In this document: positions 15,164 through 19,439 of the stretch, one piece after another
How positions within the stretch are numbered: the first letter of the stretch is position 1
How the letters are laid out: each line of letters opens with the position of its first letter
Assembly: GCF_002163675.1 (NCBI RefSeq)
Contig: NZ_CP019334.1
Span: 1,910,001-1,974,000, forward strand
Reading direction: 5' to 3'
Length of the DNA: 64,000 nt
Source of the DNA: Polaribacter sp. SA4-12
Lineage (GTDB): Bacteria > Bacteroidota > Bacteroidia > Flavobacteriales > Flavobacteriaceae
Notes under the pieces: model-generated
What the model was told of the DNA's origin: nothing
Seen by the model: only the letters and a program-made list of their open reading frames with translations
The model's database searches: none
Translations under genes and position numbers: made by a program

Positions 15164-17569
15164 ATGATTGTTAATACAGAGTTAGAACAAAAAGGGAATT
15201 TATTTCCTTCAGAAATTATAAATTACAAAAAGGATGTAGATACACTTTCCTTTACAACTAAAAACAATGTTGTTTTACAAGTTATAGTAGTAAGAGACAG
15301 TGTTATTCGTTTTAGATATAGCACAACTGGTAAATTTGAAAATGATTTTTCTTACGGAGTTACCATGCATGCAAGTAGAGGTTATAGCTTTTTAGATGTA
15401 ACAGAAAACGAAACTCATTACATTATTACTACTTCTAAATTAATTTGTAAAGTAGAAAAACTTAGTTTACAAGTAAGTTTATATGATGCTATTGATTTAA
15501 AACTGATCAACCAAGACGAAATTGGATTTCACTGGGAAGAAAGTTATGAATATGGTGGAGACATCGTAAAGATGAGTAAAGCTTGCCAAAAATCAGAAAG
15601 TTTTTATGGTTTAGGAGATAAGCCTGTAGATGTAAATTTAAAAGGAAAGCGTTTTGAAAACTGGGCAACAGATTCTTATGCTTTTGGTAAAAATACAGAT
15701 CCTATTTATAAAGCGATTCCATTTTATACAGCGATACAAGACAATAAATCGTACGGTATATTTTTTGATAATACATTTAAAACTTCTTTCGATTTTGCAC
15801 ATGAAAGAAGAAATGTAACAAGTTTTTGGGCACAAGGTGGAGAAATGAATTATTATTTCATTTACGGTCCACAAATGGAAGATGTAGTTAAAAATTACAC
15901 AGATTTAACTGGTAAGCCTCATGCTTTACCTCCATTATGGGCTTTAGGATTTCACCAATGTAAATGGTCGTATTACCCAGAAGCGAATGTAAAAGAAGTT
16001 ACTAATACATTTAGAGATTTAAAAATTCCTTGTGATGCTATTTATTTAGATATTGATTACATGGATGGATTCCGTTGTTTTACTTGGGATAAAGAATATT
16101 TTCCTGATCCAAAAAGAATGGTAAAAGAATTAGAAGAAGATGGTTTTAAAACCGTTGTAATTATAGATCCGGGAATTAAAATAGATTTAGAATATGATGT
16201 TTTTAAAGAAGGATTAGATAAAGACTATTTCTGTAAACGTGCAGATGGACCTTATATGAAAGGAAAGGTTTGGCCTGGTGAATGTTATTTTCCAGATTAC
16301 ACAAAACCAGAAGTTAGAGAATGGTGGTCTGGTTTATTCAAAGAATTAATAGAAGATATTGGTGTAAAAGGTGTTTGGAATGATATGAATGAACCTGCTG
16401 TAATGGACGTTCCTAACAAATCTTTCCCAGATGATGTTCGTCATGATTATGATGGAAACCCTTGTTCTCATAGAAAAGCACATAATATTTACGGAACTCA
16501 AATGGCACGTGCAACGTACCATGGTTTAAAGAAATACGCATATCCAAAAAGACCTTTTGTAATTACAAGATCTGCTTATTCTGGAGCACAACGTTATACA
16601 TCTACATGGATGGGAGATAACGTTGCAACTTGGGAACATTTAGCTATTGCAAACAACCAAGCTCAAAGAATGTCTATGTCAGGTTTTTCTTTTGCAGGAT
16701 CTGATATTGGTGGTTTTGCAGAACAACCACAAGGAGAATTATTTGCTCGTTGGATTCAATTAGGAATCTTCCATGCATTTTGTAGAGTACATTCATCTGG
16801 AGATCATGGAGATCAAGAACCTTGGGTTTTTGGTGAAGAAATTACAGATATTGTAAGAAAATTCGTTGAACTTAGATATCAATTATTACCATACTTATAT
16901 ACAGCTTTTTGGAATTATATAACTGACGGAACACCAATCTTAAAATCGTTAGTTTTATATGATCAAGAAGATACAGCAACACATTATAGAAGTGATGAGT
17001 TTGTTTATGGAGAACAAATTTTAGTTTGTCCTATACAAGAACCAAATGCAAAAGGGAGACGTATGTACGTTCCTAAAGGTAAATGGTATAATTTCTGGAC
17101 AGACGAATTAGTTGAAGGAGGAAAAGAAATGTGGGTAGATGCAGATTTAGAAAGTATGCCAATCTTTATTAAAGAAGGAGCAGTTATTCCTAAATATCCA
17201 GTACAGCAATATGTTGGTGAAAAGAAATTTGATGATATTACTTTAGATGTTTACTATAAAGAGGGTAAAGAATCTTCAAAATTATATGATGATGCTCATG
17301 ATGGCTATGATTATAAAAAAGGAAGATTTAGTTTACGTACTTTTAAAGTAACAGGTAAAAAAGAGGAATTAATTATACAACAACACAAGCGTGGAGATTT
17401 TAACGCAGATTACAGCAAGTTTAATATTGTATTCCATAATTTACCTTTCTCAATTACTTCTGTTCAAATAGATAATGTAGAAATATCAATAGACAATATT
17501 AACGAAGGTAAAACACAATCTATACTTATAGATAAAGAGTTTAATGAGTTACATTTATTAGGAAAATAA
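15164..17569 (+). CDS. GH31 family alpha-glucosidase
   Basis: Releases glucose from the non-reducing ends of alpha-glucans and oligosaccharides. 801 residues: N-terminal beta-sandwich (about 1-240), (beta/alpha)8 barrel, and C-terminal beta domains. The nucleophile is D407 in GVWNDMNEPAV; the acid/base is D485 in TSTWMGDNVATW; HSSGDHGDQEPW follows. No signal peptide, so probably cytoplasmic, consistent with turnover of the stored glucan made by the upstream operon. It has its own promoter region, separated from glgB by a terminator. GH31 also includes alpha-xylosidases; the exact substrate is not certain. Confidence 0.9.
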   Translation: MIVNTELEQKGNLFPSEIINYKKDVDTLSFTTKNNVVLQVIVVRDSVIRFRYSTTGKFENDFSYGVTMHASRGYSFLDVTENETHYIITTSKLICKVEKLSLQVSLYDAIDLKLINQDEIGFHWEESYEYGGDIVKMSKACQKSESFYGLGDKPVDVNLKGKRFENWATDSYAFGKNTDPIYKAIPFYTAIQDNKSYGIFFDNTFKTSFDFAHERRNVTSFWAQGGEMNYYFIYGPQMEDVVKNYTDLTGKPHALPPLWALGFHQCKWSYYPEANVKEVTNTFRDLKIPCDAIYLDIDYMDGFRCFTWDKEYFPDPKRMVKELEEDGFKTVVIIDPGIKIDLEYDVFKEGLDKDYFCKRADGPYMKGKVWPGECYFPDYTKPEVREWWSGLFKELIEDIGVKGVWNDMNEPAVMDVPNKSFPDDVRHDYDGNPCSHRKAHNIYGTQMARATYHGLKKYAYPKRPFVITRSAYSGAQRYTSTWMGDNVATWEHLAIANNQAQRMSMSGFSFAGSDIGGFAEQPQGELFARWIQLGIFHAFCRVHSSGDHGDQEPWVFGEEITDIVRKFVELRYQLLPYLYTAFWNYITDGTPILKSLVLYDQEDTATHYRSDEFVYGEQILVCPIQEPNAKGRRMYVPKGKWYNFWTDELVEGGKEMWVDADLESMPIFIKEGAVIPKYPVQQYVGEKKFDDITLDVYYKEGKESSKLYDDAHDGYDYKKGRFSLRTFKVTGKKEELIIQQHKRGDFNADYSKFNIVFHNLPFSITSVQIDNVEISIDNINEGKTQSILIDKEFNELHLLGK

Positions 17570-17580
17570 TTATTTCATCT

Positions 17581-17676
17581 CTCACTGTTTTCAGTGAGTT
17601 TTCTCACCGAAAACAGTGAGATGAAAAATACCCCATAAATGGGTATTGCAAGGATTATATTACTGCTATATATTTG
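17581..17676 (+). promoter_or_regulatory. regulated promoter, cassette 1
   Basis: CTCACTGTTTTCAGTGAG (17581-17598) and CTCACCGAAAACAGTGAG (17603-17620) are two dyads, followed by the dyad TACCCCATAAATGGGTA overlapping the -33 TTG (17646-17648), a 20 nt spacer and TATATTTG (17669-17676). The TACCC...GGGTA spacing resembles NarL/LuxR-type response regulator sites (inference). Confidence 0.7.
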
Positions 17677-17682
17677 TAATAT

Positions 17683-17787
17683 AAGTAATCTTTTCCCCAA
17701 CACTTTTTTAAGTGTTGTTGATTTCTTAAATATTTGTTTAACACAAAAAGCGATTAATAGGCCCTAAACTATAATCGCTTTTTTTTA
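17683..17787 (+). ncRNA. putative small RNA 1
   Basis: Predicted transcript of about 105 nt from the cassette 1 promoter to its terminator. It contains CCCC then a hairpin CAACACTT-TTTT-AAGTGTTG (17698-17717), and ends in the terminator stem AAGCGATTAATAG / CTATAATCGCTT (17748-17780) with T8. No open reading frame of useful size. The start is estimated from the -7 box; the end is the T run. No known RNA family recognised. Confidence 0.55.
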
Positions 17788-17827
17788 TGCCCTAGATTTA
17801 GTGAAATAAAATAATTTTTCAAGATAA

Positions 17828-17923
17828 CTCACTGAAAACAGTGGGTTATCTCACTGTTTTCAGTGAGGTGAAAAAAACCCCATAAATGGGTATTGTCTGT
17901 AATATAAAACTGTTATATATTTG
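17828..17923 (+). promoter_or_regulatory. regulated promoter, cassette 2
   Basis: Dyads CTCACTGAAAACAGTGGG (17828-17845) and CTCACTGTTTTCAGTGAG (17850-17867), then ACCCCATAAATGGGT (17877-17891), TTG (17893-17895), a 20 nt spacer, and TATATTTG (17916-17923). Compared with cassette 1 the order of the AAAA- and TTTT-centred dyads is swapped. Confidence 0.7.
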
Positions 17924-17929
17924 TAGCAT

Positions 17930-18032
17930 AATATTCTTATCCCCAAATAAGATAAAAAGCTGAAATTAATTTCAACTTTTATTTTGATACAAAGGCGACT
18001 AATAGGCCCCCAAACTATAATCGCTTTTTTTT
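17930..18032 (+). ncRNA. putative small RNA 2
   Basis: Predicted ~103 nt transcript. The 5' part can form CTTAT-CCCCAA-ATAAG, exposing a C-rich loop. A second hairpin is AAAAGCTGAAAT-TA-ATTTCAACTTTT. The terminator is GCGACTAATAG / CTATAATCGC (17996-18024) with T8. The core differs from those of cassettes 1 and 3. Confidence 0.55.
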
Positions 18033-18073
18033 ATGCCCTAGATTTAGTGAAATAAAATAATTTTTTAAGCTTT

Positions 18074-18169
18074 CTCACTGAAAACAGTGATTTGATTCAC
18101 TGTTTTCAGTGAGATGAAAAAAACCCCATAAATGGGTATTGTGAGTAATATAATACTACTTTATATTTG
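18074..18169 (+). promoter_or_regulatory. regulated promoter, cassette 3
   Basis: Dyads CTCACTGAAAACAGTGAT (18074-18091) and TTCACTGTTTTCAGTGAG (18096-18113), then ACCCCATAAATGGGT (18123-18137), TTG (18139-18141), a 20 nt spacer, and TATATTTG (18162-18169). The spacer is 20 nt in all three cassettes. Confidence 0.7.
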
Positions 18170-18175
18170 TAATAT

Positions 18176-18281
18176 AATTATTTATAATTTTCAAAAATTA
18201 GGAATTTGACGTTAAAGAAGTCTTTATTTTTTTAACATAAAAAGCGATTAATAGATCCCTAAACTATGATCGCTTTTTTTT
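18176..18281 (+). ncRNA. putative small RNA 3
   Basis: Predicted ~106 nt transcript. The core lacks the CCCC element of the other two and can pair GTTAAA with TTTAAC, with an inner AAAGA/TCTTT stem. The terminator is AAGCGATTAATAG / CTATGATCGCTT (18242-18273) with T8. Most diverged of the three. Confidence 0.5.
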
Positions 18282-18310
18282 ATACTCTAAAATTTAACTC
18301 TCAAACATAA

Positions 18311-18362: not shown

Positions 18363-19439
18363 CTATATTCCGTCTGCTAATCCTTTTAATTTTTGAGTAT
18401 TTTCTGCTAACATTAATTCATCAATTATTTTCTGAATATCACCATTTAGAATATTAGGTAAATCGTATAATGATAAACCAATTCTATGATCTGTAACTCT
18501 TCCTTGTGCATAATTATAAGTTCTAATCTTAGCACTTCTATCACCTGAAGAAACCATAGAACCACGTTTTAAAGCGTCTTCTGCATTCTTCTTTGCTAAT
18601 TCCATATCATATAAACGAGAACGTAAAACTTTAAATGCTTTCTCTTTATTTTTATGCTGAGACTTTTGATCTTGACATTGTGCTACTAAACCAGAAGGAA
18701 TATGTGTTAAACGAACAGCTGAGTAAGTAGTATTTACAGATTGACCTCCAGGACCAGAAGAACAGAAAAAATCGATTCTTACATCTTTTGGATTAATCAC
18801 TACATCAAACTCTTCTGCTTCAGGAAAAACCATACAAGTTGCTGCAGAAGTATGCACACGACCTTGAGTTTCTGTTTGAGGAACTCTTTGTACACGATGC
18901 ACACCAGCTTCAAACTTTAAAATTCCATAAACATCATTACCAGTAACTTCAAATTGAATTTCTTTAAAACCACCATTTGTTCCTTCAGAATAATCTACAG
19001 TAGAAACTTTCCAACCTCTACCTTCACAATATTTTGTGTACATTCTAAATAAATCTCCAGCAAAAATACTTGCTTCATCTCCTCCAGCTCCAGCACGTAA
19101 TTCTACAACAGCATTCTTAGAATCTTCTGGATCTTTAGGTATTAATAGTACTTTTATTTCGTCTTCTAATTGAGGAATTCGAGTGTTAGCTTCATCAATT
19201 TCCATTTTTGCCATCTCGTTCATCTCTGCATCAGAACCATCAGCAAGAATTTCTTTTGCTTCAACGATATTGTTTGTTAAAGTTTGATATTCCTCCCCTT
19301 TTTTAACAACATCTCCTAAATCTTTATATTCTTTCATCAATTGCGCATAACGCTTCTGATCCATAATGATTTCTGGCTGAATAATTAAATCAGAAACCTC
19401 ATCATAACGTTGCTTTACAATTCTTAATTTATCTAACAT
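18363..19439 (-). CDS. prfA: peptide chain release factor 1
   Basis: Recognises UAA and UAG stop codons and triggers peptide release. 358 residues, normal length. The stop-codon reading motif of the PxT type is P187-Q188-T189 within [11 protein letters not shown], and the catalytic GGQ is 231-233 in [11 protein letters not shown]. The N-terminal helical domain is intact. It is read leftward, convergent with the small RNA cassettes, and ends at a bidirectional terminator. Confidence 0.97.

Follow-up and report, generated by a model that had tools for sequence, protein, structure and literature searches.

Tandem cassettes in Polaribacter suggest a new LhrC-like multicopy small RNA family driven by a response regulator with a co-switching operator code

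What is encoded by the three units that stand in tandem between two genes in this DNA of Polaribacter sp. SA4-12? The window, by which we mean the whole analysed stretch of 64,000 nucleotides, holds these cassettes in the 793 bp between a plus-strand gene (15164-17569) and a minus-strand gene (18363-19439), which we take to be an alpha-glucosidase-like (GH31) gene and prfA, respectively. In each cassette, two 18-bp dyads at a 22-bp step are followed by a third dyad ending on a -33 TTG, 20 nt, TATATTTG, a variable body and a terminator of the GCGATTAATAG..CTATAATCGCTTTTTTTT type. The period of 246-247 bp proposed in the earlier note, which was made from the sequence alone, was borne out: ACCCCATAAATGGGTATTG begins at 17630, 17877 and 18123, with steps of 247 and 246. 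With up to 3 mismatches allowed, this 19-mer had 3 matches in the 3.99-Mb own genome, all of them in the window and with 0 mismatches (reversed-pattern control, 1+1).

The promoter of the cassettes is TTG-N20-TATATTTG; it is not of the sigma-54 type of Qrr. In an excerpt of PMC6847099, the Flavobacterium promoter consensus is TTTG/TANNTTTG, with the G of the -7 box at -5. This numbering gives predicted starts at 17681, 17928 and 18174 and predicted lengths of 105-108 nt. The features are as follows.

15164..17569, plus strand: presumed alpha-glucosidase-like (GH31) gene, upstream neighbour, synteny kept
17581..17598, unstranded: distal dyad 1 of cassette 1, CTCACTG-TTTT-CAGTGAG, perfect
17603..17620, unstranded: distal dyad 2 of cassette 1, one mismatch, at a 22-bp step from dyad 1
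17629..17646, unstranded: proximal dyad of cassette 1, TACCCCATA/AATGGGTAT, which reaches the -33 TTG and is predicted to be a third site for the regulator of the distal dyads
17646..17648, plus strand: -33 TTG of cassette 1, Flavobacterium promoter consensus (excerpt of PMC6847099)
17669..17676, plus strand: -7 element TATATTTG of cassette 1, Flavobacterium consensus
17681..17786, plus strand: predicted sRNA 1, about 106 nt, start set 5 nt downstream from the G of the -7 box, both ends predicted; CCCC 5' of the terminator and CCC in its loop; ATG absent
17745..17786, plus strand: predicted intrinsic terminator of sRNA 1
17828..17845, unstranded: distal dyad 1 of cassette 2, one mismatch
17850..17867, unstranded: distal dyad 2 of cassette 2, perfect
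17876..17893, unstranded: proximal dyad of cassette 2
17893..17895, plus strand: -33 TTG of cassette 2
17916..17923, plus strand: -7 element TATATTTG of cassette 2
17928..18032, plus strand: predicted sRNA 2, about 105 nt, with UUAUCCCCAAA, and CCCCC in the terminator loop; both ends predicted
18074..18091, unstranded: distal dyad 1 of cassette 3, one mismatch
18096..18113, unstranded: distal dyad 2 of cassette 3, one mismatch
18122..18139, unstranded: proximal dyad of cassette 3
18139..18141, plus strand: -33 TTG of cassette 3
18162..18169, plus strand: -7 element TATATTTG of cassette 3
18174..18281, plus strand: predicted sRNA 3, about 108 nt, a diverged copy whose sole C-run of at least 3 is the CCC in the terminator loop; both ends predicted
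18363..19439, minus strand: presumed peptide chain release factor 1-like (prfA) gene, downstream neighbour, synteny kept

Some details in the earlier note held only in part. Two of the six distal dyads are perfect CTCACTG-N4-CAGTGAG (17581-17598 and 17850-17867), and the other four carry one mismatch. The proximal TACCC-N7-GGGTA reading fits copy 1, while copies 2 and 3 read AACCC, and this dyad is best rendered CCCCATA/AATGGGT. The T-runs end at 17786, 18032 and 18281, matching the proposed transcript ends except the first, which had been put at 17787. The middles had been called unconserved; the three copies do differ mutually, but relatives keep the C-run, the AU-rich linker and the terminator.

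Similar cassettes occur in related genomes. A pattern scan of named genomes returned 28 stretches, 23 of them in Polaribacter or Flavobacteriaceae, one in a Bacteroidia MAG contig (L034) and four apparently unrelated (L030, L032, L036 and L045); cassettes are present, among other named Polaribacter relatives, in P. septentrionalilitoris ANORD1 and in P. aquimarinus ZY113. Among the 14 genomes matched by an earlier scan, G014, G028, G031, G035 and G047 are likely chance matches in coding sequence, and G010 is ambiguous. A covariance model built from 24 sRNAs of 13 loci matched 48 of the 166 genus genomes at E<=0.001. The window copies score 105, 81 and 79 bits, a match by construction, being among the model's input. 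From 30 examined loci of the 48 genomes, 46 cassettes were parsed in 27 genomes, with 1-5 per genome; the unparsed loci were G067, a real cassette by eye, and G035 and G119, where the complementary strand of a terminator-like hairpin was matched. The surroundings of these 30 loci are largely shared (tblastn): the C-terminal 300 aa of GH31 were found at 29, prfA at 26 and both at 25. Cassettes with other bodies also stand in other surroundings (L017, L035, L037 and L050). The earlier note had counted a lack of similar cassettes in relatives, together with unconserved dyads, against its own proposal; instead, the related genomes and the dyads spoke in its favour, and its family of predicted RNAs of about 105 nt with shared promoters and diverged bodies is supported at the sequence level.

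What the bodies share is a C-run. A run of at least four C was present in 40 of the 46 cassettes and in 25 of the 27 genomes, compared with 5.6% of 1,364 non-coding background windows; the six cassettes without it include sRNA 3 of the window, which keeps only CCC. The exposed CCCC proposed earlier agrees with the predicted folds, in which C-run positions were unpaired with a value of 0.93, compared with 0.38 for the rest and 0.25 for other G/C positions. In the minimum-energy folds, 29 of 40 upstream C-runs and 24 of 30 in the last 45 nt were both unpaired and enclosed by a helix. Relative to dinucleotide shuffles, the folding energy had a median z of -4.83 (range -8.94 to -1.22). Long ORFs were absent: the longest closed ORF had a median of 7 and a maximum of 25 aa, and an ATG was present in 19 of the 46 cassettes. 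From a mixed alignment, RNAalifold recovered only the terminator (13 pairs, 3 with two-sided change), so the predicted 5' hairpin rests on single-sequence folds. An Rfam scan of the window gave no sRNA family at the gathering threshold and nothing useful at E<=1.

The promoter layout of the cassettes is shared by the gene of an orphan NarL-family response regulator (RR), which adjoins a DUF4293 gene and lies near a gene that we take to be rho. In the own genome, the RR (G000:C1:3267299) is preceded by two CTCACTG-type dyads and the proximal site TTCACTGAAAATGGGGGT, with TAAATTTG 10 nt 5' of the ATG. The protein has a receiver (PF00072, 70.1 bits) and a GerE domain (LuxR-type HTH; PF00196, 60.3 bits), both above cut-off, which supports the earlier suggestion of a NarL/LuxR-type regulator. 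Its sequence relatives include VraR, DesR and NarL. It scored 131.8 bits against the UvrY/SirA/GacA equivalog NF007018, not reaching the cut-off of 280, and its best NCBIfam model, MctR, gave 142.8 bits with a cut-off of 300. The RR was matched in 136 of the 166 genus genomes at E<=1e-35 (G012, G023 and G175 only at E of about 1e-37 to 1e-42); beyond the genus, a match at E<=1e-40 came from 12 of the 119 genera sampled. In some of these genera, which belong to the same family, same-kind dyads also precede the gene related to the RR (L278, L279, L281 and L285), so the arrangement likely predates the genus. From 110 RR loci, 109 promoters were parsed (L146, G113 remained unparsed) and 89 fell within the palindrome and offset cuts; 49 promoters had exactly the own genome's spacing. 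The 58 of the 109 that passed the cuts and had the 22-bp step form the covariation set. In L058 (G168), the RR reading frame is interrupted by one TAA near the recognition helix. In P. porphyrae (L008/L033), all three RR-promoter sites contain CCCCATAAATGGG, the near-fixed sRNA proximal site elsewhere.

The dyad letters vary among species (CACTG, CACGG, CACCA and CCCTG), and they switch together between the RR promoter and the sRNA promoters. Over 23 genomes, half-site agreement between the two was 6.14, with a permutation mean of 5.10 and 0 of 20,000 permutations reaching the observed value, kinship being ignored; the 15 genomes of the CAC class alone gave the same 0 of 20,000, again ignoring kinship. 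G115 (RR absent from the table) and G121, G162 and G078 (ambiguous palindromes) were left out. In nine genomes of the class with an SHHT or SPHT helix, both the RR promoter and the homologous cassettes carry dyads of the CCCTGA kind, G078 only partly; in SHHT-helix genomes the sRNA dyads are of the ATCCCTGA..TCAGGGAT kind, and the RR promoter likewise. Agreement was partial in G005, G106, G107 and G114, and single copies deviate in G033, G065, G098, G100, G127 and G138. In 12 of the 14 genomes of the TCTAAGGG class, the full dyad (TCTAAGGG-N4-CCCTTAGA; L191-L206) was found at a single place, in most cases the RR promoter. The sRNA model, whose filters discard weak matches, gave one weak match in these 14 genomes (G180). 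The sRNA arm is thus not universal and may have been lost or never gained in this class.

Among the RR columns tested in the 58 RRs, N190 at the start of the recognition helix shared the most information with the dyad letters (mean excess mutual information 0.47, compared with a mean of 0.06 and a maximum of 0.27 in the receiver and a mean of 0.11 in the recognition helix), and E193, one helix turn beyond N190, ranked fourth among all residue-base pairs with half-site position 7; both figures are inflated by shared ancestry. The counts were E-G 33, D-A 14, E-A 9 and K-C 2 for residue 193 with position 7, and N-A 23, S-C 18, H-C 11, R-C 4, S-A 1 and K-A 1 for residue 190. In equal-length ranges, E193 aligns with residue 187 of the 1a04 NarL chain, which we take to be the base-contacting NarL K188. 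Some receiver columns, K33 and S108, covary too. The half-site core underwent 21 changes on a poorly resolved receiver-domain tree of the 58 genomes. For D/E193, only 2 independent pairs lay on supported branches of the receiver-domain tree, where 27 of 53 inner branches are open; on average 1.8 of the 2 agreed with the prediction, and two pairs do not suffice for a test.

These results bear on who reads the dyads and on whether the cassettes are genes at all. The earlier note had assigned the CTCACTG dyads to a second factor, which would leave the RR on the proximal ACCC-N7-GGGT only. Such a division could account for the CAC-class sRNA proximal site, nearly invariant while the distal letters vary (CACTG, CACGG and CACCA), and equally for the difference in the own genome between the sRNA proximal site CCCCATAAATGGGT and the RR's own TCACTGAAAATGGGGG. 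However, the proximal site of an RR promoter repeats the letters of that genome's distal dyads (n=58; 0 of 5,000 permutations, for either half), so that one factor for the three sites is likelier than two. Moreover, the three sites of the G182, G009 and G006 RR promoters are nearly one palindrome, the distal dyads of P. porphyrae (CCCCATAAATGGGG) are close to the fixed proximal sequence of the sRNAs, and the distal letters covary with the RR recognition helix; we consider two factors unlikely. Still less probable is that another regulator, co-evolving in the same genomes, uses the dyads and that the RR gene is just one more target. The autoregulation of the RR is indeed read from position only, and shared ancestry explains part of any covariation, yet the strongest covariation among the RR columns tested is found where the recognition helix begins, and the fourth-ranked pair involves E193, whose counterpart in NarL is taken above to contact a base. 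As for a tandem array of terminators or repeats lacking any trans function, derived from a duplicated GH31 3' end, the cassettes do directly follow the GH31 stop codon, and the G035 match is a hairpin strand near GH31 where no such promoter was parsed. But every cassette is equipped with a conserved promoter and dyads of its own; where the dyads change class along with the RR, the promoter and terminator persist; and relatives stand in other surroundings, which leaves this explanation scarcely credible.

The regulon that the RR may control can be outlined from the own genome. The pattern CACN8GTGN8CACN8GTG with at most 1 mismatch occurs at nine places, and the reversed pattern at 0: the three cassettes, the RR promoter (L224), L208, L207, L212, L211 and L209. 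A simple repeat or mobile palindrome was considered and rejected, since all nine places lie outside the longer listed ORFs and face a promoter-like stretch. At eight of the nine the dyads are followed by TTG-N20-TANNTTTG, and L208 has TATATTTA (by eye). L208 (G000:C1:2371286-2371450) is a short predicted transcript with TTCCCCCAAGAATCCCCC, two CCCCC runs, an unrelated body and its own terminator, which we predict to be a further sRNA of the same regulon. The dyads of L207 precede a subtilase (PF00082, 589 aa read), and those of L212, L211 and L209 precede a 146-aa protein, a 124-aa protein and a 38-aa frame. In relatives, dyads lie before type IX secretion cargo (PF18962; L217 and L240); L242, L233 and L237 open with start letters like those of L217 and L207, as judged from the start letters only. 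A one-mismatch dyad also precedes a 76-aa HTH_3 protein (L210). We further observed small HTH proteins behind same-kind dyads in L022, L025 and L210 (70-76 aa for L022 and L210), possibly second-tier regulators.

Overall, a triple-palindrome promoter with a 22-bp step, whose third site touches the -33 TTG, precedes the RR gene, the cassettes and a few other genes. We favour, with a probability of about 0.75, that the cassettes are multicopy genes for regulatory RNAs of about 105 nt, switched directly by one self-controlled NarL-family RR on three in-register palindromes. Dimers of the RR, probably in its phosphorylated form, would sit next to one another on the three sites and recruit RNA polymerase, so that the RR gene would be transcribed along with the sRNAs and the genes of some secreted proteins; between activation with positive autoregulation and repression, we choose the former. 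In the predicted fold of the RNAs, an AU-rich linker joins a hairpin at the 5' end to that of the terminator, and the C-runs would be exposed. Copy number and body divergence may then provide dosage and target diversification.

How does this arrangement compare with known systems? LhrC is the closest functional analogue by our comparison, and the likening of the layout to LhrC in the earlier note stands, as does its statement that no known family is matched: the Rfam scan of the window had no LhrC among its 26 rows at E<=1, LhrC presumably having an Rfam family. The regulator class also differs, LisR being of another class than the NarL type here. In Vibrio, the Qrr sRNAs are several genes under one response regulator, LuxO, as predicted here; Qrr transcription uses sigma-54 promoters and LuxO belongs to the NtrC-type activators, in contrast to the -33/-7 promoters and NarL-type regulator of the cassettes. 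In GacA-RsmY/Z and UvrY-CsrB, several sRNAs are controlled by a NarL-family response regulator that acts at a palindrome ahead of their promoters. The short repeated loop motif is alike, but it is a C-run here rather than GGA, CsrA was not found in the own genome, and the RR is below the GacA cut-off. Rsm and CsrB are named in the excerpt of PMC4132741, which describes LhrC1-5 of Listeria as five copies of 111-114 nt, dependent on LisRK, whose UCCC motifs in loops and a single-stranded stretch bind mRNA. The likeness lies in near-identical length, several copies and C-rich loop motifs. All LhrC copies depend on one two-component system (same excerpt); the cassettes also have several copies and shared operators, and their dependence on one regulator is a prediction. 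In the same phylum, the excerpt of PMC11697453 describes the paralogous FopS/GibS sRNAs of Bacteroides, likewise a multicopy family in which a hairpin forms the terminator. FopS, with 14 members, has its seed in a single-stranded 5' part and binds RbpB. By description, the cassettes differ: they stand in tandem behind RR-type operators, their RNAs are predicted to form two hairpins with C in the loops, and an RRM_1 protein was not found in the own genome. Rfp18 of Flavobacterium psychrophilum, whose deletion lowers two metalloprotease mRNAs (excerpt of PMC9723704), is also a Flavobacteriaceae sRNA; by description, it is a single sRNA whose third stem-loop is the predicted pairing region. Literature in an open-licence library held no description of the cassette family and nothing nearer than FopS. 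The cassettes are best read, from sequence, as a new LhrC-like sRNA family, present in several copies under a response regulator, whose co-switching operator code is unusual. The Flavobacteriaceae would gain such a family together with a named candidate regulator and predicted sites, and the matched regulator/site variants (CACTG, CACGG, CACCA, CCCTG, ACGTA and AAGGG classes) would form a natural series for measuring how transcription-factor specificity evolves.

The mode of action raises a further question. The UCCC motifs of LhrC are tied to Shine-Dalgarno sequences (PMC4132741, in excerpt), and the mRNAs of Bacteroidota are naturally without them (PMC6847099, in excerpt): how would C-rich loop RNAs, which elsewhere block Shine-Dalgarno sequences, work in this phylum? 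Hfq, an RRM_1 protein and CsrA were not found in the own genome (controls matched 5/14, 2/14 and 3/14, respectively), which points to a chaperone-free or unfamiliar-chaperone mode. A G4 run at -30..+20 was present in 0 of 74 mechanical ORFs (100+ aa) of the window and the own loci, and no target was seen among them. The C-runs or C-loops may base-pair, as in LhrC, with G-runs of a limited number of mRNAs, or titrate a C-binding protein. Under the latter, the RNAs would be decoys whose loop motifs act as CsrB/RsmZ do on CsrA via GGA motifs. The recurrence of CCCCC on unrelated bodies behind same-kind promoters (twice in L208, three times in L028, and in L042 and L046), the predicted unpaired state of the C-runs and the resemblance of the RR to UvrY/GacA (under the cut-off, as given above) speak for it. 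One or two motifs per RNA in most cassettes are few for a sponge, however, and besides the missing CsrA no candidate C-binding protein was identified, so decoys seem to us possible but doubtful. A Rho decoy, given a C-rich RNA, was considered as well and no evidence for it was found. Returning to regulatory RNAs under the RR, a broader proposal is that an orphan NarL-type RR repeatedly rewrote its DNA code within one genus and that its regulon (own promoter, C-loop RNAs and type IX cargo) followed, the RNAs acting by kissing-loop C-runs without Shine-Dalgarno sequences and without detectable Hfq, RRM_1 or CsrA; we hold the odds for and against this to be about even. As a separate observation, the predicted leader of the gene for the 1557-aa cargo protein in L217 carries AACCCCCAA, which resembles the sRNA loops.
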